From NCBI GenBank assembly GCA_004335635.1, contig QAXH01005480.1:57719-121718 (forward strand): 64,000 bases of DNA, in the 5' to 3' direction. The notes beneath the pieces are model-generated. The model did not search any database. It was not told where the DNA came from and saw only the letters and a list, made by a program, of their open reading frames with translations. A program made the position numbers and the translations under genes. Positions within the stretch are counted from its first letter, which is position 1; every line of letters begins with the position of its first letter. The stretch is from Chloromonas sp. AAM2 (Eukaryota > Chlorophyta > Chlorophyceae > Chlamydomonadales > Chlamydomonadaceae). This document shows positions 4,644 to 61,100 of the stretch, in pieces.

Positions 4644-5266
4644 GTTTGTATAGTGTACCGCTCGCACACACACACGGTTCCAGGTTGCTTGTAATTAATG
4701 GAAACCCTGCCCGTTTCTAACTGCCGGCGGCAGATCGAGATTTGCTTTTTCCGTGTAACAGGGAATTGTGATTCGCCGCTGCATATTGGGTCGCCTGTTT
4801 TTTCTGTTGTTCGGGTGTCACTGATGCTTTAAAGGCAGGCGCGTTACAAACCACAGGCAGTGTTGTAGGGGCACAGGCAGACATGCAGAAACACATGCAT
4901 CAGCATCAACGTCAGCAGCCCTGCATCAGCACATGCAACGTCAACAGTATAACTGAGCTGCGACACTTTGGTACCGTGTTCCGGTAAGTGCATGCTTGGC
5001 ACAAGCGACACTGGCCATCGGTTGTTGTGCACATGATGTGATTCTGATGAGAAATTGATGCATTTGTGCAGTATGTAGATGTGCTTGCGTGAGATAAGCA
5101 CGAGTGATCGGCTCCGTTGGGAGAACATTGGATAGTCATGCATTGATGCTGATGCAATGCCATGACATGACATGATGCATGACATGACGCTGCACATGCG
5201 GCTCGCAGCGCTCGACCCTGCCATCCATGGCCAAAGCCAGCCCCATGTGGCACCTCTCCATGTGTC
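4644..5266. promoter_or_regulatory. Divergent promoter region between two genes
   Basis: This 623-bp region separates the start codons of the minus-strand plastid protein and the plus-strand membrane protein, so it must hold both promoters and 5' UTRs. I see no TATA box that I would defend, and no coding exon. Confidence 0.4.
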
Positions 5267-21457: not shown

Positions 21458-24400
21458 CTGCATCAGGACACAGTGTATGGTACTTTTGTCCGCTGCTGGT
21501 AGCGAAATGATGTATGTATGTATTTACACCAGGGAAGCCGTCAGAGGACACGGAGCGGGCTGGGCACCAAGTGATCAGAAGTGATTAGATGTGATCAGAA
21601 GTGATCAGAAGTGATCAGAAGTGATCAGATGTGATCAGATGTGATCAGAAGTGATCAGAAGTGATCAGAAGTGATCAGANNNNNNNNNNNNNNNNNNNNN
21701 NNNNNNNNNNNNNNNNNNNNNNNNNNNNNNNNNNNNNNNNNNNNNNNNNNNNNNNNNNNNNNNNNNNNNNNNNNNNNNNNNNNNNNNNNNNNNNNNNNNN
21801 NNNNNNNNNNNNNNNNNNNNNNNNNNNNNNNNNNNNNNNNNNNNNNNNNNNNNNNNNNNNNNNNNNNNNNNNNNNNNNNNNNNNNNNNNNNNNNNNNNNN
21901 NNNNNNNNNNNNNNNNNNNNNNNNNNNNNNNNNNNNNNNNGATGTGATCAGAAGTGATCAGAAGTGATCAGATGTGATCAGATGTGATCAGAAGTGATCG
22001 TGCTAGTGCTCCAGCATCCAGTTTGAGAAATCCATGCACGTGTTGCACACAGCAGCAGTAACAGCGGGTGATTCAGTCATCATCAAGTCTGGGCACAAGG
22101 CTTTGCCCATGCAGTCCCAGCCGCGTTGTGACATACTGTGGGTTGAAGTTGTTACAGTCGTTACAGTTGGGATTCAGCATAGGGCCCCTTAGATAGCAAA
22201 TCCACCTCCTTGCTCAAACCATGCTTTCTAAACAACTCCTGCCACCCGCCCAAGTGAGTTAGCATCTCACGTGGCCTTACCTGTTACCCCATACGACCGT
22301 CACAGCCAGTCACCAGCCTCAGAAACCTACCATTTCGCGTGCTAAAAGCGCCCCATCCCATGCGCACCCCCAGTTTGCATTGTTTTTCCCCGCATCTGCT
22401 CCCACCTGTGCGTGTTGTTCCGGGTCGCCTGACTGAGATGCCGCCGCATCCACATCCCACGTCTCCGAGTAAAGTGGCTGCACGTGCACCTGAGCAACCA
22501 ACCAACCAACCAACCAACAAACAAACAAACCACGTGGGCAAATCAGAGGACAAGGGCTGAAGCAGTGTTCTCTGCACTGATTGGTTAATGTTTTGGAGGG
22601 GCAGAAACGCCTGGCCTAACCACTCCCATGGCTTGCAACGTATCCATAAACGGCTCTGTGTCATGCAATATGATGCTGGTGGACACAAACCTAACCCTTA
22701 CCGACCCTAACCTTAAACTCAACCCCTCCCTCCAGCCTCCTTCCATGCACCGCATACCCTTACCCTAACCCTTAACCGTCACCCTGACTCCTCACCCCTG
22801 CTTCCCTCCATGCATCCCATTCGGGCAAAAACGCCCCGCTCGTCACGTTCTGAGTCACGTACAAACACGAAACCTGCAGCGACAAAACATCCCACACACG
22901 CTGATCAACGCCCACTGCGTGCACAAAAAATGAGATGGTTGGTTGTCTCTGTCCGCGCCTGTGAACGTGCCTGTTGTTACAAAGTGCGCTTTGTGTCCGC
23001 AGACCGGGGCATGGTAGCCACAGGCTGTCCGATGAGCCCCAGTACTGGGGATAGTGGACCACCATTGTGTACATGTTTTGTGAGTGTGAGAGCCATACAG
23101 TGGGGTGTACCTGTATGAGCCAATACACCAAGTAGTACGCCATCGTACATACACATGTTTTTCAGTATGTGTTTAGTAGTGTGTTCGGGCACCGTTAGAG
23201 TTGTATTGGCTAGAAGTTGCGTATTGTGAGAGCGACTGTCGTGCAGCTCTGGTAGCAACACCAGAAAGTGGCGACTGATATATGGCTTAAAGCACCTTTG
23301 ATGCGGTTGCATGAACCAGTACGGCTGTCCAGATGAGCAGTACGTGTAACAAGAGCTTTGCAATAACGCGTTTACGAAGTTGCACTTTGCACATTTGAGA
23401 TTTGGCAGTTGTGAACTGGATGTCAAGCGCACATGCTTGTAGAAAAACCCTGCTTGTTCAGACCAGTGGTCTTTCGGCCAATGATTACAGAGCACCTGTT
23501 GAAGCATTGCTTCGCTCGTAAGCTTACCACGCTTCAAATTGGCTTGTTTCAACTCAACAACTCGAACTTTTACGAACGGATGCCTGTTCGCATATGTGAG
23601 CTTTTGCCTTTATTTACTTGATCAATCAAGTTTGAGAAGCCAGAGAAGTTGCTGTGTTACGAAGTCCAAACGAGGACACGGTATTGTTTTTCTAAATGGT
23701 TATTGTTCTTCATTTCATCACCTTTGATGCGGTTGCGTGTGCCAGCACGGGCGTCCAGCTGAGCAGTGCGCGTATGGGCACGATGCCCCGGGTGCCCACC
23801 GCAATGCACAGCAGCGGCCGACCCTCCTGCACAGTCAGGCAATTGAAAATCTGTGATCTCAAAATCATCCCTGTGATGGATGCCCTGTGATGGGTGTGAG
23901 TCTTTTTTTCACGCCAGTGACTCTGGAGTGGTTCCTCACCAAGCAAATGCTTGACAAACAAATCATCGTACTTCCGGTGTTGAAGTCATTTTTTGCCGCA
24001 TTTTGTCTGGTGGGTTTTTCTGTTTCTCGTAAGACTTGAAACTTGCGTCATTCAGACTTGAATTCGGGATGCTGTTAACAAGTGCTCTAGATCTCCCGCA
24101 GTCAGTGTTACAATGACCTATAGCTGGCAAGCCCCGACAACGCTGTAAACCAACGACCGGAATTGTGACAACTGCACCACAATCAGTGTCGTCATGGTCA
24201 TCAACAGGCGTCGGAAGATTGTCCTGCCATGTGTGCAAGTGCTGCTGCATGCAGTAGATGCCTGCAGGAGAGTGAAGTTGCCAGTGCTGCAGACATCAGC
24301 AGCCCCCGTTGACGTGTTTGCGTAAAGCAAGCTGAGAGGAATCAAGACGGCGTCACCATTGGAATTGAATTGTCATGCACCGCACCTCTAGAGCCAGTTG

Positions 24401-32139: not shown

Positions 32140-35100
32140 ATGGCTCAATTGTTGCAGACCTCGCGGTTACATCGCTTATCCGGTGCACACACCACCAATC
32201 ATCAGCAGCACCTGGCAGGATGCCCATCAGCGCTGGTCAGGAGCCCAGGTGATGAAGGTCTCGGCAATCTGGCAAGGGACAAGGGTTCTTGATCAACATT
32301 TCGACATCGGGAGCCCACCTTCATCAACTTGCAGGCTTGAACCTGATTGGCTTGGCCGATCTGACAACATGTCGAAGTGGCCGAGGCGCTGTGGCAGAGC
32401 CAGCATCCCGTGCTATGCAAACAAATCAAGTGCAACCATCCGAACCTGGCGTGCTGCATTCTTCCATCGTCGCACCTAAGCCTGTTCAGGTACGCGTCAA
32501 TGATTGATTGGCAGATCGCTCACGGTCATGTTTGAGTTACGTAATGCCGTGCTCACCACCCACCTTGATGCTCACACTTCGTCTGACGTCCCATCTTTAT
32601 TTCAGGTTCCTAAGCCAAGGTCAGGCCCAGTGGTGGGACCCGAGCTGGGGGAGCTGCACAAGAAGTTCAAGAAGCTTCAGAATGGCAGTGACATCCGTGG
32701 CATTGCTCTGGACGGTGCGTGGCTCAGTCTGCAGCCAAGTCATCACATTGGCTTTGCCGGCACAGACACGTACACCCAATCAACAGAAAGAAACAACAAC
32801 AAACAGACCAGCAGCAGATCACATCAGAAGGTGCCTTACTCTTACCCTACCCTACCCTACCCTACCCTACCCTACCCTGGCATATGGTCCACAAGTGACA
32901 CCCTGCCCGTCACCAATTGGAGCTCATTTCACGCGAAAAGGGGTTCCCGATGTGCAACGGCACTCATGCAGCGCACACATGCACTGGTGAATTAAAGTAG
33001 TGCTGCCGCGACGCACGCACACACGCTCAGACACGCGTACAGACACAAATGCGCTCACGCACGCTCATGCACATGCAGATGCAGGTGTGCTCGACGAGCC
33101 TATGACGTATGCACAAACGCATGCACACACATGCACACGCTCATGCACATGCAGGTGTGCCCAACGAGCCCATGACTCTGACCACGGGCGCAGTCTTCTT
33201 TATAGGCGTGGCGTTCGCCCGCTGGCTCAGAGCCAAGAACCCAGACACGCCCATATGTGTGTCTCTGGGGCGTGATCCCAGGCTCAGGTGAGCACCAGGC
33301 AGTACACTAGGATCACATGGGCAGGACGTGCAGATCGCATGACAGCTCTGGGATCACAGGCGGATCACATGGCAGCTCTGGGATCACAGGCGGATCACAT
33401 GGCAGCTCTGGGATCACAGGCGGATCACATGGCAGCTCTGGGATCACAGGCGGATCACATGGCAGCTCTGGGATCACAGGCGGATCACATGGCAGCTCTG
33501 GGATCACAGGCGGATCACATGGCAGCTCTGGGATCACATGGGCAGGACATGCAGATCACATGACAGTTCTGGGCAGGATGCAGGGATCACGTGTCTGCTT
33601 GGGCGTGATCCTAGGCTCAGGTGGGCAGCGCACTCATATCATTCGGACCACATGGCAGGATTCTGGGATCACATGGGCAGAGTACAGTGTGGTGTTTGCC
33701 CGCTGGCTCAAGGCAAATAACCCAGACGCGCCTGTGTGTGTCGTGCTGCAGTGCAATCACGTAGCAGTGTTTTGGAATCACATGGGCAGGACGTCCGGAT
33801 CATGTGGCAGGGTCTTGGCTGCATGTGGGCAGGGCGTTGGAATCAATTGGCAGGCCTGAGAACCAGAACTCTATACGTCATACTTCTGTGTGGTGACATG
33901 GACGAATGTCTGGTATACCAACTGCCGTGACAGCTAGATGATTTGTACGTATCCTCACTCACGTGCTGTCACGTGCATGCCACCTGCCGTCACATGCTTA
34001 TCAGTTCCGCTTTTTTCTAAGTAATCACGTGCATGTTGGCTGCTGTCACGTGTCTCTCACATGCATAACGTGCAGTGGCCCCATGATCGAGTCTTCCCTG
34101 GCTGCGGGTCTGGCTTCAGAGGGTGTGGACGTCACACTGTTTGGCCTAGCCACCACTCCATGCATGTTCTACTCGATCATGGAAACAGGTAAGGGTCAGA
34201 CTGGGCGGTGCATGTTCCGTTCGATTAATGGCATTGTTTGGCCTGGCCACCACTCCATGCATGTCAAACTAAATATTGAAGACAGGTAAGGGTTCGACTG
34301 GGCGAGGCTCTACCTTCGCATTTGAATGCATGGGAACAATCAAGTCTCAAGAAGCAAACATACAGAGGGATTGGGCTGGCTCAGATTGTGCATGACTGTA
34401 CATGCATGCACTTATGCACTTGTTGGGTTGGTTGGTTAGGTTGGTTGATTGATTGTGGGGCCTGGGCGAGGTCATCTTTGGTCTGACAGTATGACGGGTG
34501 GGCTAGGTGCTGAAGCAATGCCTTTCTAGATCCTCTGTCCTGCCAGTGGATTACCCTTGACTTTCGTGACATTTCTTGATGCATCATCATTGGTTTCTTG
34601 ATGCATCATGATTGGTTTCATCACATGGCATTCACTGGATTGCCCAAAGCATCGGTTTCATGTGATAACGGCGATAGCGCGCGAGCTTTCAGTGCTGCAG
34701 TTGAAACGATTCCTTTCACATGCATGCAGTGGGGCTGTACCAGGGTGCCATCATGATCACCGCCTCCCACATGCCATGGAACGCCAACGGCCTTAAGTTC
34801 TTCACAGCCAAGGGCGGACTGGAGAAAACCGATATCACTGAGCTCGTACATCTAGCCTCCCAGGTAGGATTAGTAGAAAATAGTTAATAGGCAGTAGACA
34901 GAGTTACCTCATTTTAACCCAACCCTGAATGGACGTTACCCAACCCTGATTTCAAACCTTTTACTTGAACCCTTGCAAGTGCCGTCTGCCAACCTAACCC
35001 AAACCCCAAACTCCAGTCTCTGAGAAGGGGGAGGGTGAATGGACGCAGTAAGGAGCGGCATTCATTACAATCATGAATGCAGAAGCAGTATGTAATAAAG

Positions 35101-38100
35101 TATGTTGCGTGTGGAGTCAGGGTCAGCCTGGCAGAAAATGGAAAGCGCAGGTGGTGAAAAAACACACTTCTGAACACAGGCGTGCGGCGAGGCGAGTCTG
35201 ATACTGGGGAGCCTAGGCGATCATCACAACTATAACTCTCAACGGCATCATCAGTTTATTTGATAGCATCTGATGATGATTGATGTCTGGTTATGTTCAT
35301 CAATTACTGCTCCATGTCTGTATGCCATACAGGCATGCAGCGAGGCGGGGGTGATGTTGGGGGAGCCATGGGCCGAGGCAGCGCATGTGCTGGAGGCCAG
35401 CCGGGCACTCGAGGGGGAAGTGGGGCACGTGAGTACACGTGGGCGGTTACTTTTGTCGTTACTGTTGTTCTGCTTGTTGATGCTGGGGCCAGCGCGCCAG
35501 CCGGTCATTTGAGGGCGAGATGGGGCACGTGAGTACCGTTACTGGGTGGTTACTGTTATTGCGGTTATGGTTGTTGATGGCTGCCGGCGCAGGCGCCAAG
35601 CAATGCCTGCAGGCGTGCAAGCACTAGTCACTGGTGTGACCTGGTGATAATCAAGCATCTGCAAGAACGAACCACTGGTCCTGTTGCCGCTTGGGTCCTG
35701 TACACTGTATACTCAGGGACAGAGGCGCTGGTGTGATCTCACTTGCTGCCCGTTTCTGCTGCGTGACTTCCGTCCCCTATACGCCAAGATGCTACGTGGG
35801 CTGATCATCCAAGGGGTTCACATTCCTTTGCTTGTTTACACGCCCGTTTCTCTATCCGTTTTGTCGGTTTCTGCAGCGTGACTTCCGCCCCCTGTACGCC
35901 AAGATGCTACGTGGGCTGATCATCCAGGGGGTTCAATCCAAGGATGCGCCCAACTTACCGCTCCTGGGGTCAAAGATTGTGGTGGATGCGGGCAATGGAG
36001 CAGGGGGCTTCTTCGCGACAGAGGTGAGGGCTTTTTATTTTTGACTCTGAGATCGAGGCGGCCATGCAATGATGTTACTTCTGACCAGGTGCTTGCACCC
36101 TTGGGTGCCGACGTTCGTGGCAGCCGTTTCGTCGACCCTAGCGGTTCCTTGCATGCCATATAATGATCGCTTTTGCCATGGTTACTTATGCCCAGGTGCT
36201 ATTGCCCACTCTCACCTGGTCGTGTCTTGTGCAGGTTTTGGCTCCCCTGGGTGCTGACATACGCGGCAGCCGTTTCCTGGACCCCGACGGTTCGTTCCCC
36301 AACCACCCGCCCAACCCCGAACACCCGGCTGCCATGGCCTCAGGCGCACAGGCAGTCACAGAGGCAGGGGCGGATCTAGGCATCGTGTTTGATACGGACG
36401 TGGACAGGTAGGTATCGTTTTGATATTAATGTTGGTGTTTAGTTCTGATATCGCTTTACTAATGGTACTGATTTCTAATTAGTATCTAGTTTATCGATAT
36501 GTATTTGTTTTCAAGCGATTGTTTGATCTTCTTTCAGTTTCATGCTACGTCGTTTTGATAATAGTAGTATTTGGTTCTAGTAAGAACTATAATTGTTTGC
36601 TTTATAACACCTCTAGAGCACAGGCAGTGTCAGACAGTGACAGGGCGGCTGCAGCAAAAACGCAATACGTCCGCTGCATGTGTGACTGGCGGGATGGGTA
36701 CGGGTATGTACGGGATGGGTACCACTGATGAGATGCTAGTTACAGAGCTTAGAGCTTTGTGTTACTTACGTTTGTCCCTGCACTTGACATAGACGCGCCA
36801 TGCATTGTGTACAGGGCGGGATGGTTGAACTGGCATGTGTGAGAGCCATGTGAAAGATGTGTCAAGTGCGACATGTGCGTGCCATGCCATGGTGCCTGCA
36901 GGTCGGCCATTGTGGACCGCCATGGCCGCGAAATCAACTCTAACAAGTTCATTGCACTGATGGTCAGTCAGTCAGTCACATGGGACACACTCATGAGGTC
37001 AAGTCAGCCAGTCACATGGGGCACATGCATGCATATGTCACATGGGGCACATGCATGCATGTACCACATGGGGCAGATATCACATGCATGCATATGATCA
37101 CAATCAGCGGCCACGTGCACGCATCAACACATGGGCACCTTGCATATGGCACCTTGCATCAGCGCGTGGGCCACCTTGCATGGCTTCACATTACCTGGTA
37201 CGGCAATGACAGTTTCAAGGGTACTAGATGTAGTGAACAAGGGTGCTCTGCTTTGCAACAGTAGTAATGCAATAGTGACAGAAAGAGGCATATTGAGAAG
37301 GAAAAAAATCACTTTTCAGGCTGACCTGTAGCCTGAACTTACCCGTATCCTCACGTGCAGCAACTCTAAAACAGTTCCCCGTACTGCCTTTGCTTCAGGC
37401 TGCTATCATACTGCGCGACCACCCCGGCACTACAGTTGTAACCGACAGCGTTACATCAGCAGGACTGGCCAAGTTCATTGCAGACCTAGGGGGCAAGCAT
37501 GTCAGGTGGGCTGACCGGACTGGGCAACTGACTGTAACGTCAGAGGCTGCCACACTATACACGGTTGCACATGCGTGGGACGACATCTCCGCCACACCAA
37601 TTGCACGCTACAGAAGTACTGTAACTGTGGGCCCTCCTGTTAGAACAAACCCTTGCAGTAAGATGCATCAATCTCGGTCCATGCTGCCATCTCCTCCGGT
37701 CCATGCCACTGACTTGAGTGATAGAGGTCTCATGCTTTTGTTTGAGCGAGAGTCCAACTGGCAGACTGCTAGGCGCGGCACCCCGACTTTAGCTACGCTT
37801 GCTTGCTGATGACTTACCCCTGTACATGTGTGCCATATCTGTGGTACATACATGTGTTCGTGGTACATGTGGTACACATGTCTGCCATGTCTGTGGTATC
37901 TGGGCGGTCTGCATCAGAGAAGCCGGGACGTGGAATGGATGGACACTGCCCTGGCCTACTACGGGCAATACGATGCTAACACAGCTCAAGTGATGGGCTG
38001 AACTGCATCCTGGCTAATATCAAGGTTCTGTCATGTTCCTTATTGATGCATGCAGGTTCAAGCGCGGGTACAAGAACGTCATTGGCAAGGGAATGCAGCT

Positions 38101-40839
38101 CAACCAACAGGCACGACAAACGTCGCATTGTAACATGCAAACACTTGCCTCCACCTCACAGCACCAGGGAGTGCTCCCGCTGTGAACCGCAATACTGTGG
38201 CATGCACTTGTCTTGTAGCATGCACACACCCATCTCACAACCTACCAACGCGCTCCCAAAGCAGCACGACGTAGTGTCGCCTCTTACCTGGTAGCATGCA
38301 CCCTTCGCACAGCTTAGACAAAAAGCGCCTCCCGTGCAGCATTGACAGCACATTTGCATGTATGCAGTTAATATACAGTGGCATGTAGCATGCACACATC
38401 TCTCTCACAACGACTCCTCATGTGGCTTGACACGCATGCATGCACGTACGCACAGTAAGCTAGGGCAAGCTGGCCCATGCTGCATTTTGATCGACGCGAT
38501 TCTGTATTATGTTCTCACACGGAGCCACAGTAAGTTATTAATTTATCATTTAGGGCATCCAAGACCACATCAAGCATCGTCAGCATGTGCGCCACATGGC
38601 CGCGTGTGCTCGTGCACATGCAGGGCGTTGAGACACATCTCATGATGGAGACCAGCGGTCACGGCGCTGTTAAGGATAATTATTACCTAGATGACGGGGC
38701 CTACATGGCAGTGCAGGTCAGTGAGTCAAGATTTGTTTTATGAGGGGTGGCCATGAGTAGAGAAGGGGTGGAAGGGAACAGAGATTGTTTCATTGGTGCA
38801 CTGGGGCATACATGGCAGTGCAGGTAGGTACATTCAGGGAGCCTCAGGAAAGCCGCCGGAAAAAGGGCAGGGAGGCAAGAGGCCTGGATGGAGGTCTGAA
38901 CAGTAAGGCATGATCAGAACCCTTTGGCAAAGGTGGTGAGCTATGCAGCTGTATCTTGCAACATGTGAATGTGTGTAGCACGTTGGGCAGGTGGGATGAG
39001 AAAGCTTACATGGCAGGTCAGTAGATCAGTAGGTCATGCAGGTCGGCAGGTCAGCAGAACGGCCGGGGATGGGTTGGCAGAGGCAGGGACACGACGGTCG
39101 GGGATGGGTCGGCAGAGGCAGGGACGCGAACGGCCGGGGATGGGTCGGCAGAGGCAGGGGTATGGCCAGAGCAAAGGTTTGCAGGCAAACGTGGCCGAGG
39201 GGATCGCGGCTTGCGCACAGGGCTGGGCCTTCTGCCTGTCCGACCGTGCCCATGTATATTATGCAACAAAGACATGACCAGTGTTTTGCCTGGACTCGCA
39301 TGTAATCTGTTCAGGTAGTAATTGAGGCCATGCGTCGGCGCCAGGCAGGCACCGGTGATATCGGCGATCTGTTGGCCCAGCTGAAGGAGCCATTAGAGGC
39401 GAGGGAGGTGCGCATTCGCATCACCGACCCTGACCACTCGGCTATGGGAAAAGAGGTGAGAATGGAGGTTGAGAAGTGGTTCAACACACAATCGACTGGT
39501 GGGCGACGTATGGATGGCATGCATAAATAGACTTGGGCCGACAGGAGCCTGTTTTCCGTTGAGATCATGTCACCCTGACGTGAATCTGCATCACATGAGA
39601 TTATCCTGTCGCTTCGGCACCCCTGTGCTGGCTTACTCAGTATCGGCTGATGCATGTCGCCACAGGTTGATGGTTTTTGCTTTGAATGAGGCTTGTTCTA
39701 TAGTTGTACTAGCATGGCTCTTTTGTTTTGAACACACAGGTTGTTCAGCGATTCCACGACTGGGTTGTTGGTGGTCCCCCTGCCCCCTCCAACTGGACCC
39801 TGGACCCAATCAACCATGAGGGATGGTGAGTGGACACAAACCAACTGCTGAGCACGTTGTAAGGCGACGCTTTACGTCAAGGTAATTGTGTGCGTTCTTA
39901 GTTGGGTGATGCCTGCTTTGCTCCAGTGAGCCCCGCAGCATAGTGCTACAACGATGTGACGTGCGTTGAGTCAAGTCTATGTTGCATGGTGGCCTTGGCT
40001 ACCTGTTCTCTGTTGTTCTCTGTGCAAAACGCGTGAGCTGATTTTGGCAAGGATTCTGGTCTGAAATCGGTAAAATTTCGCTTAAAATTGCGGTCGATTC
40101 AAACTGCGTTCATCTAGAAAAATAAATGGTGTTTTTCGGATCCGTAAAACTTAGCATCCGTAAAAACAACTGCGGTCCTACGTTTTTTTGTATACGTATC
40201 TCTACTGAGGGTCCAAGATACGATTGTGGTCTACAGCCCCAGGAATTCAAACTTGACTTGTGCTTCTGTTTGTGCCCAGGCGTGTGAATGTGGATGAAGG
40301 CAACGGCAAGAAGGGCTGGGCGCTGCTGAGGCAGTCGCTGCACGATCCGTTGCTGGTGAGGCGCATGCATGCTCACTCTTAGCTCCAAGCGTCATCACCG
40401 CTAGCTTTCAGCTTTGTCTTTCCATGATTGCTGCCTGACATTCAATCTTGTGTCAGAACGCTCGTGTCAACATTATGTGCCCCTCCAAACCGAGGCACTG
40501 CGTGCATTGCATGCGGCACTTCGTTTTGGTGACTGTTGACGTCACTTTCATTCCATTCATTTGTTTTGGTCAGCTGCATACATGCCTACTGTTACCTTGA
40601 CATGTGCGTCATTCCAATCTGGCCGTTGATCAGAACGCTGCTGCTCCGGATCGAAGCACTGCATACGTTTCATCATCCTCACATGACGGTTTCTTTGCAC
40701 GTTTCACCATGTGCCCCAGGTGTTGAACGTTGAGAGTGAGGTTGAGGGCGGCTCCAAGACCACACTGCGACAGGTGTTGGACTTCTTTCTGCAGCGCTGC
40801 CAGGGCATGCCTTTGGACCTGTCAACGCTGCCTAACTGA
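32140..40839 (+). CDS. Plastid alpha-D-phosphohexomutase (plant GlmM/PGM-like, At5g17530/At1g70820 type)
   Basis: Seventeen exons fit in phase: 32140-32248, 32335-32489, 32606-32714, 33155-33287, 34076-34188, 34730-34863, 35333-35428, 35877-36023, 36235-36407, 36902-36962, 37399-37505, 38056-38110, 38624-38716, 39315-39455, 39740-39825, 40280-40355 and 40720-40839, giving 635 residues. The first 70 or so (MAQLLQTSRLHRLSGAH) resemble a transit peptide. Catalytic landmarks: phosphoserine loop TASHMP (217-222), metal loop DTDVDR (385-390) in place of the usual DGDGDR, sugar-binding ETSGHG (473-478), and LLRQSLHDP (586-594) where most members have RxSGTEP. These variants are typical of the plant/algal plastid clade. 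The expected reaction is 1,6-phosphate transfer on a hexose phosphate; the sugar is not certain. The exon 12 donor is GC (38111). TGTAA follows at 40899-40903. At least seven exons have echoes. Confidence 0.93.
32839..32879. repeat. (CCCTA)n tract in an intron
   Basis: Seven tandem CCCTA pentamers lie between exons 3 and 4 of the phosphohexomutase gene. Confidence 0.9.
33081..33106 (+). repeat. Exon echo: acceptor and start of phosphohexomutase exon 4
   Basis: GCAG plus the first 22 bases of exon 4 (33151-33176) recur 70 bases upstream with three substitutions. The AG acceptor is intact, so it could compete with the true acceptor. Confidence 0.75.
33331..33545. repeat. 30-bp tandem repeat (about 7 copies) in an intron
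   Basis: Near-identical units of the form GGATCACATGGCAGCTCTGG plus GATCACAGGC follow the donor of exon 4. There is no spacer between units and no unique sequence, so it is a minisatellite. Confidence 0.95.
33686..33748 (+). repeat. Exon echo: middle of phosphohexomutase exon 4
   Basis: 63 bases match exon 4 at 33205-33267. FARWLRAKNPDTPICVSL becomes FARWLKANNPDAPVCVVL. There is no indel over 21 codons and most changes are conservative. It lies in the downstream intron. Confidence 0.85.
34234..34301 (+). repeat. Exon echo: end of phosphohexomutase exon 5 with donor
   Basis: It matches 34137-34207, including GACAGGTAAGGGT at the donor. The first ten codons are conserved (LFGLATTPCM, with two synonymous changes); the following part is scrambled and has a TAA. 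Confidence 0.8.
35174..35214 (+). repeat. Exon echo: start of phosphohexomutase exon 7 with acceptor
   Basis: It matches 35327-35367 (ACAG then GCNTGCNGCGAGGCG) with several substitutions and a small deletion at its end. Confidence 0.65.
35498..35535 (+). repeat. Exon echo: end of phosphohexomutase exon 7 with donor
   Basis: It matches 35398-35435: CAGCCGG, then TTGAGGGCGAGATGGGGCAC before GTGAGTAC. The donor is intact. Confidence 0.75.
35762..35820 (+). repeat. Exon echo: first 59 bases of phosphohexomutase exon 8, acceptor destroyed
   Basis: It matches 35877-35935 with only three differences in 59 bases. All three are third-position synonymous changes (CGC/CGT, CTG/CTA, CAG/CAA), so RDFRPLYAKMLRGLIIQGV is unchanged. 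The acceptor AG of the true exon is TG here (35760-35761), so it should not be spliced in. Confidence 0.9.
36089..36154 (+). repeat. Exon echo: start of phosphohexomutase exon 9, acceptor kept (possible poison exon)
   Basis: It matches 36235-36300. VLAPLGADIRGSRFLDPDGS becomes VLAPLGADVRGSRFVDPSGS, with many synonymous changes. CAG acceptor bases at 36086-36088 are intact. If used, the frame meets TAA shortly after the homology ends, so inclusion would truncate the protein. Confidence 0.85.
38801..38823 (+). repeat. Exon echo: end of phosphohexomutase exon 13 with donor
   Basis: GGGGC-TACATGGCAGTGCAG before GT (38698-38716) recurs at 38803-38823, followed by GTAGGT. A shorter trace is at 39003-39020. 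Confidence 0.65.
39036..39165. repeat. Degenerate GGGATGGGTCGGCAGAGGCA tandem repeat
   Basis: Three to four copies of a unit of about 33-37 bases lie in the intron before exon 14 of the phosphohexomutase. Confidence 0.8.
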
Positions 40840-40912
40840 AGCCTTGCAAGGCAGCAGTCGTGCTTGTCAGCAGTAATGTTAAACGTACAAATATCAGGTG
40901 TAAGAGTTTGTC

Positions 40913-40963
40913 CTACAGCGCAGCCAGGGCATGCCATTGGACCCGCCAACACTGCCTAACTGA
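40913..40963 (+). repeat. Exon echo: end of the last phosphohexomutase exon including the stop codon
   Basis: 51 bases match 40789-40839. LQRCQGMPLDLSTLPN-stop becomes LQRSQGMPLDPPTLPN-stop with no indel. It lies 73 bases beyond the true stop, near the TGTAA at 40899. Confidence 0.9.
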
Positions 40964-58144: not shown

Positions 58145-61100
58145 CTACTCTGCCCTGCCTTCCATGGCTGGCTGCTGCCGCCCCTGCTGCTCCGCAGCCG
58201 CATCTGCACCGGCCTGCCCTTGCATGGCAAGCTCAATGAAGTCCTGCATGGAAACGTTCAGAGAACATCTTAAACAACTATCCAACCACGTGCAAGAAGA
58301 AACACGCTTACTTCCTGCCTGGCTTCATTCCTCCTAAGCTTCACTCAACAAACAGCATTTTCTCACCGTTTGTTAGCAGTTTCACTAGTCCAATTGTACT
58401 TCCACATGCAAAAACAATGGCTCTTCAACTGAAGTCCACATATATACTTTTCACACGGTTCCCAAGACTGGCTATTCCGCTGACACGCACGGCCAGCGCA
58501 CCCACCCCAACAAATTCGTCATTATCAGTATTATAATCAGTACTACTATTATCATCAACACCTTGATATGCACAGTGAGCACATGGTCTGGCAGCACGTC
58601 CAGCACCGCCAGCATCCTTTGTGTAAGCATTATTACAATTCTATTGATATAATTATTATTATCACCTTGATGTGCGCGATGAACACATGGTCTGGCAGCA
58701 CGTCCAGCACCCCCAGCTGCTCGAACGACCACACCACGCGTATTGTGGTTGCCTCGGCGCGGCTGCTGTGGTTCCACTTACCGTGCGCTGCGTCCAGGCA
58801 CTCCTGCGGTCCACAAGCAGTGTTTGCAGGCATCGTTCAACGTTTTGCATCGGACGCTCAAACACGCCCCAAAATCAACTGAATGGCCGAAAGTACGAGT
58901 ATTCAACCAACACGTATTTGCTGAAATTTGCTGATAATCATCTGCCGATGTTTGCTGATTCCACATTGCCCATGGGCGGGCACACCAGACACGTACATGC
59001 ATATGGCACATGGTGCATTGACCAGCATTAACTTTTGTCTTGTCCTGAACGTCGACTTGTCTCTGGACCGACTTGCATCAGCATTTGTCTGGACCAAGCC
59101 ACCAACAACTTCAACCGCCTTCAGCCTTGCACCGGCCCTGCATGCTGCTCCCCACCTTCAGGACCTCCTTGCTAGAGATAATGTTTCAACACTGCCAAGT
59201 TACTAGATCAGAATCCAACACTCCTGAACCGTTGACTCCTGAACCGTTGACTCCTGTCCCTAGAACACAGCGACCCATAAACCCTTAACCTACACACTGA
59301 GACACTCAATCACCCCCTGACACAACCCGCATGCAGGTGGGCTCAACAAACCTTGGATTTGAGCTCCTCACATGCTTGCGATGCATGCAAAGTGGTCAGA
59401 GGTATTCACTCCCGCATAGGGTCATTTTCTGTCCAAACCCCTGCCTCCTGCCTACACACTGGGACACTCAATCACCCCCTGACACAATTTGACTACTCTG
59501 TGCCTCTGGCTAGGACGGTACCCAGCCTCGTCTCTTGCATGGCTTGCTAGCGTTCGCGCTCGGTGCATGTGGGCCCCCTTGATGTAATCAATATCTATAA
59601 GCATGATGGCGACATGGTTGAGAAATGTTTGAACACCGTCATCCCCCCACACACCTGCAGAAACTCCTTGCTGGGGTTGTATTTGAACACGGCCAGGGCA
59701 TACAGCACATCCGACAAGTAGTCCAGGCCCATCTGAGCGACCATGTTGGTGCGCCTCATGTGCTCCTCCAGCTTTGTGAACAGGCCTGCATGCACCAAGA
59801 AGTGAAGTGCGTCGAATGCTTCTTTTTTGTGCTTTCCTGCTCAGGGTGTAGGGTCTGCATGGGTGCGAGATGAACGAAGTCATAACGCTTCTTGAGTACG
59901 GTATGTACCCTGCGTGTGTTAGGGTGGAGGGCGTAAGTCCAACCCAACCCTAACCCCAAACCCTAATCCTAAACCCTAACCCCCGTGTGTGAGGTACAGA
60001 GGATTGCCTTGGCAGAAGGGTGCTTCTCGTGATGGTGGTGCTGGCATGCAACGGACGCATGTGGTGTGGTTGCTGGCACAGAGGTGTGCCTCTCGTGATG
60101 GTGGTGCTGGCATGCAACGGACGCATGTGGTGTGGTTGCTGGCACAGAGGTGCGCCTCTCGTGATGGTGGTGCTGGCATGCAACGGACGCATGTGGTGTT
60201 GTCGCTGGCACAGAGGTGCGCCTCTCGTGATGGTGGTGTTGGCATGCAACGGACGCATGTGGTGTTGTTGCTGGCACAGAGGTGCGCCTCTCGTGATGGT
60301 GGTGTTGGCATGCAACGGACGCATGTGGTGTGGTTGCTGGCACAGAGGTGCGCCTCTCGTGATGGTGGTGCTGGCATGCAACGGACGCATGTGGTGTTGT
60401 CGCTGCTTTGTGAGCTGCGTTCGTTTTGCTTTCTTGCTCAGGGTAGGCCAGCATGGCGCCAACCCCAGCCCATGTGTGGGTGGCCTGTGACGCCTCCCTT
60501 GATGTGAACAGGTGTATATACACTCTCGTGCATGCAAGGCTTTGACGAGGCGAAGGCGGGGATGCAGGCAGCACCTTGGTGCGCTATTCAACCCTAAGTC
60601 TAACCCTCATCCCTAAGCCTAAGCCTAGCCCTACCTTGGTGTGTGACCTCGGCATGTGTGAGAGCCCAGCAGCAGTCGACCACGGAGGTGAGCGTGAACA
60701 CGTCCACGTTCTCCAACGCCCTGTGCACACACACACACACACACACACACAAGATCTTGTCCTTCCCCTCTTGCCCCTGCTGAGCAGTCCTCCCCGGACT
60801 GAAGGCCATGTAAACAACAAACAACAACCTAACCAAAGCAAACCCAGATCAAACGTACCTATCGACGAGCACGCTGAACAGCTCCCGGTCCTTGTGGCCC
60901 AGTTTGGCAAAGGCCCACATGAGGTCAGTCAAGTTCTGCAGCCAGCATACACACAAGAGAGGCAGCACTTACAAATACAACACAAATCAACAAATATTTG
61001 CACAGCCCTGGGCTTCCTGTCAAGCTTCCCAGCCAGTCACTACAACCTCTCACAAGCCTATCTGTATAAAAACTGTTGTTGTTGTTGTTTTTGTTGTTGT

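Follow-up and report, generated by a model that had tools for sequence, protein, structure and literature searches.

How do partial copies of a gene's exons come to lie directly beside those same exons, in the same orientation, at seven exons of one gene? The question is raised by a phosphohexomutase gene of the alga Chloromonas sp. AAM2, found in a stretch of 64,000 nucleotides (the window) that forms the final 64 kb of a 121.7-kb contig (QAXH01005480.1), in an assembly of 74.4 Mb and 2324 contigs (GCA_004335635.1). An earlier reading of the same letters, the original prediction, had described these copies as exon echoes and had offered three explanations for them, namely local duplication, a diverged copy of the gene zipped into this one, or collapsed haplotypes in the assembly, and its interpretation is partly supported by the analysis given here. 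The explanation that we favour, with a probability of about 40%, is that the copies would be non-functional remnants of another, diverged version of the gene, joined to the first by error-prone overlapping recombination and subsequently decayed.

Judged from sequence and domain content, the gene itself is real. Its 15 joined exons (numbered 3-17 after the original prediction, the gene model starting at exon 3) make up an uninterrupted reading frame of 547 amino acids, the predicted product of which contains the Pfam domains PF02878, PF02879 and PF02880 (PGM_PMM domains I, II and III; alpha/beta/alpha), and the nearest solved structures by sequence are chains named phosphomannomutase/phosphoglucomutase. 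The only run of N in the window, at 21680-21940, is distant from the gene.

32606-40839, forward strand: phosphohexomutase (PGM/PMM family) gene, exons 3-17, with the stop codon at 40837-40839 and GT-AG junctions except for one GC-AG.

When each exon was compared with the 1.2 kb on either side of it, at E values of up to 0.01, ten partial copies of seven exons were found, all ten in the same orientation as the gene and situated in the adjoining intron or, in the case of exon 17, just past the stop codon; for eight of the 15 exons (3, 6, 10, 11, 12, 14, 15 and 16) these flanks gave no copy at that threshold.

33053-33106, forward strand: copy of the start of exon 4 with its acceptor, upstream; 81% over 54 bp against 33123-33176, of which 32 bp are intron, with AG kept.
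33591-33660, forward strand: copy of the end of exon 4 with its donor, downstream; 77% over 71 columns against 33259-33326, over half of it intron, with a 1-bp insertion in the exon part.
33689-33742, forward strand: copy of the middle of exon 4, downstream, the exon end being lost; 82% over 56 columns against 33208-33263, with a 2-bp deletion.
34232-34304, forward strand: copy of the end of exon 5 with its donor, downstream; 82% over 73 bp against 34135-34207, with an in-frame TAA.
35176-35213, forward strand: copy of the start of exon 7 with its acceptor, upstream; 79% over 39 columns against 35329-35367, with a 1-bp deletion.
35496-35579 (35496-35557 in the exon-against-flank match), forward strand: copy of the end of exon 7 with its donor, downstream; 75% over 91 columns against 35396-35482.
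35752-35820, forward strand: copy of the start of exon 8, upstream; 94% over 69 bp against 35867-35935, the acceptor AG changed to TG and the intron flanks unrelated.
36086-36150, forward strand: copy of the start of exon 9 with its acceptor, upstream; 77% over 65 bp against 36232-36296.
38803-38825, forward strand: copy of the end of exon 13 with its donor, downstream; 22 of 23 bp against 38696-38718, a match of only 23 bp.
40895-40963, forward strand: copy of the end of exon 17 including its stop codon, beyond the gene's own stop; 83% over 69 bp against 40771-40839, with an in-frame TAA.

The claim that partial exon copies stand beside their own exons is in this way borne out, and two things are added to the original list of at least eight copies: a third piece of exon 4, and a rule, given below, for the side on which each copy lies. 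None of the ten covers a whole exon, and six are damaged, two by an in-frame stop (5 end, 17 end), three by frame-shifting insertions or deletions (4 end, 4 middle, 7 start) and one by the loss of the acceptor (8 start). The splice AG or GT is retained in seven of the eight copies whose boundary includes a splice site, the start of exon 8 being the exception, and nine of the ten exon-to-copy offsets are not multiples of three. The copy of the end of exon 7 makes up the greater part of a tandem unit of 100 bp, the intron side of the exon 4 middle copy can be aligned further (z 4.9), and in the copy of the start of exon 9 third positions hold 9 of the 15 exonic differences. There are also four short matches on the opposite strand (exons 4, 6, 7 and 17; 19-33 bp), three of which are self-palindromes, and the intron flanking exon 4 partly matches repeats of intron 4.

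The position of the copies is not a product of chance, which was rejected as their source on the strength of their placement, of their exonic enrichment and of empty shuffles. In an all-against-all comparison (15 exons against 16 flanks, on both strands) there were eight matches, and all eight lay on the same strand in the flank adjoining their own exon, which agrees with the earlier claim of a common orientation next to the matching exon; the short copies of the starts of exons 4 and 7 fell below the threshold of this test. Among the nine masked local pairs of the gene, eight contain at least 15 exonic columns (P=0.007 under random placement), and exonic columns amount to 382 of 582 (P=0.02).

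The same structures are not limited to this gene. The wider sample comprised 313 kb in 30 sequences, that is, the window and 29 other stretches, with tandem arrays masked; it represents 0.4% of the assembly and is no census. It contained 58 local direct repeat pairs as against a single local inverted one, although the 58 need not all be exonic (a codon-usage rule passes 13), whereas three shuffles of the complete sample produced no local pair at all. A count against shuffled controls had been proposed with the original prediction, and on this sample the recurrence holds, while the pairs are spread very unevenly among the stretches. A gene on another contig (L026), which we take to be CCT-alpha by its likeness to the sequence of that protein, the profile evidence giving only the Cpn60/TCP1 family, has seven non-redundant pairs, one of which copies the last exon beyond the stop codon; the same likeness sets the frames of two of these pairs and decides which copy is the real one. 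Copies of copies in this gene (last exon; 372-426 exon) depart from the exon, as seen by eye, at shared silent sites, a point in favour of a second gene version. On the window's own contig one further stretch at least, L019, is affected, with ten local pairs, three of which read as echoes of one exon. Of the other chaperonin stretches, L027, L030, L032 and L033 have no local pair, and L028 and L029 have one each, while L034, the stretch beside CCT-alpha, has two weak ones.

Within the window, the pairs 23293/23719, 25459/25619, 43995/44131, 44973/45252 and 58548/58652 are also local and direct, with exon-like translations on the minus strand, and are perhaps echoes of neighbouring genes. Two further repeat families were met, in L019 (about 184 bp) and in L026 (about 125 bp), with dozens of matches each among those listed, the L019 family having partner matches on the opposite strand. 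Another chaperonin reading frame, G000:C1117:28996-30504, is intronless, 536 amino acids long and unlike the multi-exon ones, and is possibly bacterial or organellar.

Wherever echoes could be assigned, a side rule is followed: copies of exon starts are upstream and copies of exon ends downstream in 18 of 18 assigned pieces from three genes or stretches (sign test), the assignments having been made by hand and, for L019, by eye from translations. The count takes in assignable pieces that have an exon end, and so omits the exon 4 middle piece and the CCT-alpha piece MLGQ, the CCT-alpha pairs 6735/7111 and 7186/7355 (numbered along the reverse strand of L026), the remaining pairs of L019, the two weak unframed pairs of L034 and all other stretches. 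The rule would arise because each fragment is a collinear piece of the gene, and contiguous tandem duplication predicts the same. The identities are also narrowly distributed, 28 of 35 local pairs having 75-85% and only three 90% or more, as if the difference had been present at birth.

One feature that separates a plain duplicate from a fragment of another gene version is the kind of difference between copy and exon. This divergence is coding-like and falls mostly on silent codon positions: in the phosphohexomutase gene the mismatches at codon positions 1, 2 and 3 are 21/147, 8/149 and 39/141, with 23/80 at 4-fold sites, and with the seven CCT-alpha copies added they become 24/230, 12/232 and 58/224, with 39/127 at 4-fold sites. 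By our own estimate, when a copy was dead from birth the 4-fold rate should not exceed the rate at second positions by more than a factor of about two, whatever its age, because the copy then accumulates change equally at every codon position, to which the exon adds at its silent sites only. The ratio found is 5.9 for both genes (likelihood-ratio test against the bound of 2, one-sided P=5e-5; bootstrap over 17 pairs, 3.4-12.4) and 5.3 for the phosphohexomutase gene alone (P=0.003). Five pairs in L019 and L022, two stretches of the window's contig, give 10, 4 and 33 differences at positions 1, 2 and 3, a third-position share of 33/47 against 0.45 (P=4e-4), this last figure again being our own estimate for a dead copy; these pairs were framed by codon usage alone, a rough procedure that 275 of 2910 random windows pass and only 4 of the 15 known pairs of the two genes. 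A test of 3-periodicity that requires no frame gives P=0.001 for all local pairs and P=0.009 for those outside the gene, as against P=0.56 for inverted and P=0.23 for far pairs.

The second line of evidence comes from the introns. If a contiguous unit had been duplicated, its intron too should be present twice, but in 12 of 13 testable pairs the similarity of the flanking intron falls below that of simulations with a divergence of 0.05-0.12 per copy, the thirteenth having only 16 bp to test, and in 11 of 13 below that with a divergence of 0.18. The exon 8 pair is among the 12, with unrelated intron on its flanks in spite of an identity of 94%. Conserved exons, introns that are mostly unrelated and differences that are mainly silent together have the look that two diverged versions of one gene would present on being compared, with the end of exon 7 and the middle of exon 4 as the exceptions.

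From what is seen directly (the copies, the side rule, the codon pattern, the mostly unrelated outer intron and the lesions) we infer the following history. Two versions of the gene, be they diverged alleles, hybrid subgenomes or a duplicate since lost, would have coexisted, and repair or replication would have switched between them several times, re-entering slightly upstream on each occasion, so that each junction would repeat some 70-500 bp, once from each version. Exons would have remained recognizable across the junctions as they were conserved between the versions, and introns mostly would not; splicing would have kept the one complete exon while the leftover ends decayed, and the other version would later have been lost. 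Template switching between diverged repeats in break-induced replication would yield collinear mosaics with short overlaps of this kind, although we know of no description of it as a pattern of exon ends through whole genes. The more far-reaching proposal, that entire genes are zipped mosaics of two versions diverged at about one-third of their silent sites, stitched together exon by exon with an echo at every switch, is put forward more tentatively than the origin of the copies themselves. It is the diverged copy zipped into the gene, among the explanations originally offered, that best fits the coding-like divergence and the unrelated introns.

Several observations weigh against this history. 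The other version was not found in the 74-Mb assembly, by a search of low sensitivity to short pieces in which the majority of the copies already known within the query went unlisted, nor was a second CCT-alpha version found among the 40 of 706 candidates that were scored, nor one for L019, in a search so crowded with repeats that even L019 failed to appear. The codon test becomes weaker when CpG sites are dropped, 4-fold sites over positions 1 and 2 then giving 3.3 (95% interval 1.9-6.4); biased mutation (CpG, high GC content at third codon positions) was tested as a cause and weakens the codon signal without removing it. Codon usage also framed four pairs elsewhere (two in L031, one in L010 and one at 58548 in the window), which have 10, 18 and 22 differences with no excess at third positions, and it may be that the sample mixes clustered pairs, whose divergence is coding-like, with isolated pairs that are ordinary dead duplicates, a split between rich genes and isolated pairs that was made after seeing the numbers. 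A frame-free mixture estimate reached significance in no set, the phosphohexomutase and CCT-alpha copies included, and it is for this reason that the framed pairs were relied on. At third positions, 34 differences have G/C in the exon and A/T in the copy and 15 have the reverse, a bias which fits either change on the side of the copy or a donor version with lower GC content at third positions. Beyond the 13 pairs, the 7 end and 4 middle copies continue into alignable intron like plain tandem units, and at the 4 start, 4 end and 5 end the alignments extend over 19-40 bp of intron, which is what tandem duplication predicts. Lastly, why some genes are rich in echoes and others poor, such as the other chaperonin stretches, is not explained by a mosaic of two versions.

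The most serious competitor is that the exon-intron boundaries of the gene were themselves duplicated locally and in tandem, in the ordinary way and long ago, by break repair or slippage, and that such duplicates survive only where coding sequence is spared and remain visible only where one copy is a conserved exon. Breaks in DNA are known to give rise to small tandem duplications, a recognized class of mutation (PMC8355091). The repeats are indeed direct and close by (58 against 1 in the 313 kb), the side rule follows from such duplications equally well, several copies include splice-adjacent intron, the 7-end copy is mostly a tandem unit, the 4-middle copy runs into intron and the four framed pairs elsewhere are without coding excess. 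What local duplication, the first of the original explanations, does not provide is homology through the whole unit, which fails in 12 of the 13 flank-tested pairs, or a codon pattern of this strength, 5.9 where about 2 at most would be expected, and few of the pairs are young; we regard it as less likely than the mosaic, but as a rival still to be reckoned with. Refreshment of the copies by gene conversion, also considered, would lower silent and replacement differences alike.

An artefact of the assembly is in our estimation only slightly less probable, and it would reproduce the geometry exactly: two diverged haplotypes, or two co-cultured strains, would have supplied contigs or gap fills that were concatenated with their overlapping ends unmerged, so that one exon end appears double at each junction. 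The offsets of 60-160 bp in about 22 of 35 local pairs are near short-read length, local fragmentation would give unevenness between genes, and in L019 an internal run of N (4965-5116), not necessarily an assembly gap, is found within a local tandem repeat. Collapsed haplotypes, as originally suggested, share this geometry, but working alleles should have open frames and intact splice sites, and lesions in 6 of 10 copies are unexpected in them unless the contig ends are rich in errors; furthermore, the single run of N of the window is far from the gene, and the gene's exons were not found elsewhere in the assembly, in a search of limited sensitivity. That the copies are exons now or formerly in use, as alternative splice sites or ends under selection at the protein level, is very improbable. 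Such use would account for the coding-like divergence and for the AG or GT kept in seven of eight boundary copies, but not for pieces that are only partial and contain internal stops and frameshifts, for offsets of which nine in ten are not multiples of three, or for copies of last exons beyond the stop codon in two genes. Three other candidates were rejected: (i) mutually exclusive duplicated exons, no copy of the ten being a whole exon and stops and indels being present; (ii) intron gain of the AGGT type, in which the start of the next exon opens the intron and the end of the previous one closes it, none of the eight all-against-all matches being so placed; (iii) and finally, introners or a transposon, the echoes having no match elsewhere in the assembly within the limited sensitivity for short pieces.

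The introns and splice sites of the gene have other features of their own. GT directly follows the acceptor AG at the start of 8 of the 15 exons, these AG|GT sites being in principle conceivable as both donor and acceptor, and the GC donor is that of intron 12. A minisatellite with a 30-bp unit occupies 33333-33538 in intron 4 and is distinct from the exon copies, intron 3 has a run of the pentamer CCCTA (32843-32878), and intron 10 has ATGCAT-rich imperfect palindromes (37015-37098). Dispersed repeats are present in intron 11 (37546-37612, short, with 12 more matches on 10 contigs at 79-86%) and in intron 15 (39961-40182, about 222 bp, with 14 more matches on 13 contigs at 87-95% identity), the latter stopping short of the splice sites. 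The light-harvesting family has 30 exon-level matches in the genome, in keeping with a photosynthetic eukaryote as its source.

Frequent duplication inside genes is not a new idea, and Gao and Lynch, in 2009, reportedly found internal gene duplication to be ubiquitous; to our knowledge, clustering with coding-like divergence was not part of that account. In a review of intron gain, the duplication model likewise has an exon-derived duplicate ending up in an intron of the same gene (PMC3443670). By our own working of that model the start of the next exon would be expected to open the intron and the end of the previous exon to close it, whereas here, at seven exons, end copies follow and start copies precede the exon to which they belong. 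The RNA-dependent RNA polymerase gene of potato is similar in that a tandem duplication crossing a boundary has left exon sequence in an intron; that case is a single recent duplication with inherited splicing signals, in contrast to ten pieces of coding-like divergence with outer intron that is usually unrelated (PMC4974935). Introners, too, place repeated sequence in the introns of many genes, yet there one element serves many genes, while the echoes, where tested, matched their own exon only (PMC9860276). No description of clustered, collinear exon echoes was found in the titles and abstract openings of the open-licence papers looked through, which is weak evidence of novelty.

If the echoes were the result of an assembly fault, false exon ends would be systematically inserted into introns, misleading both gene prediction and studies of intron evolution. 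If instead they are true, they would represent a route of intron growth and gene mosaicism that plain tandem duplication leaves uncovered, with junctions between two gene versions that can be counted in one genome. Should the genes be zipped mosaics, their echoes would preserve in fossil form how hybrid or duplicated copies of a gene had once recombined.

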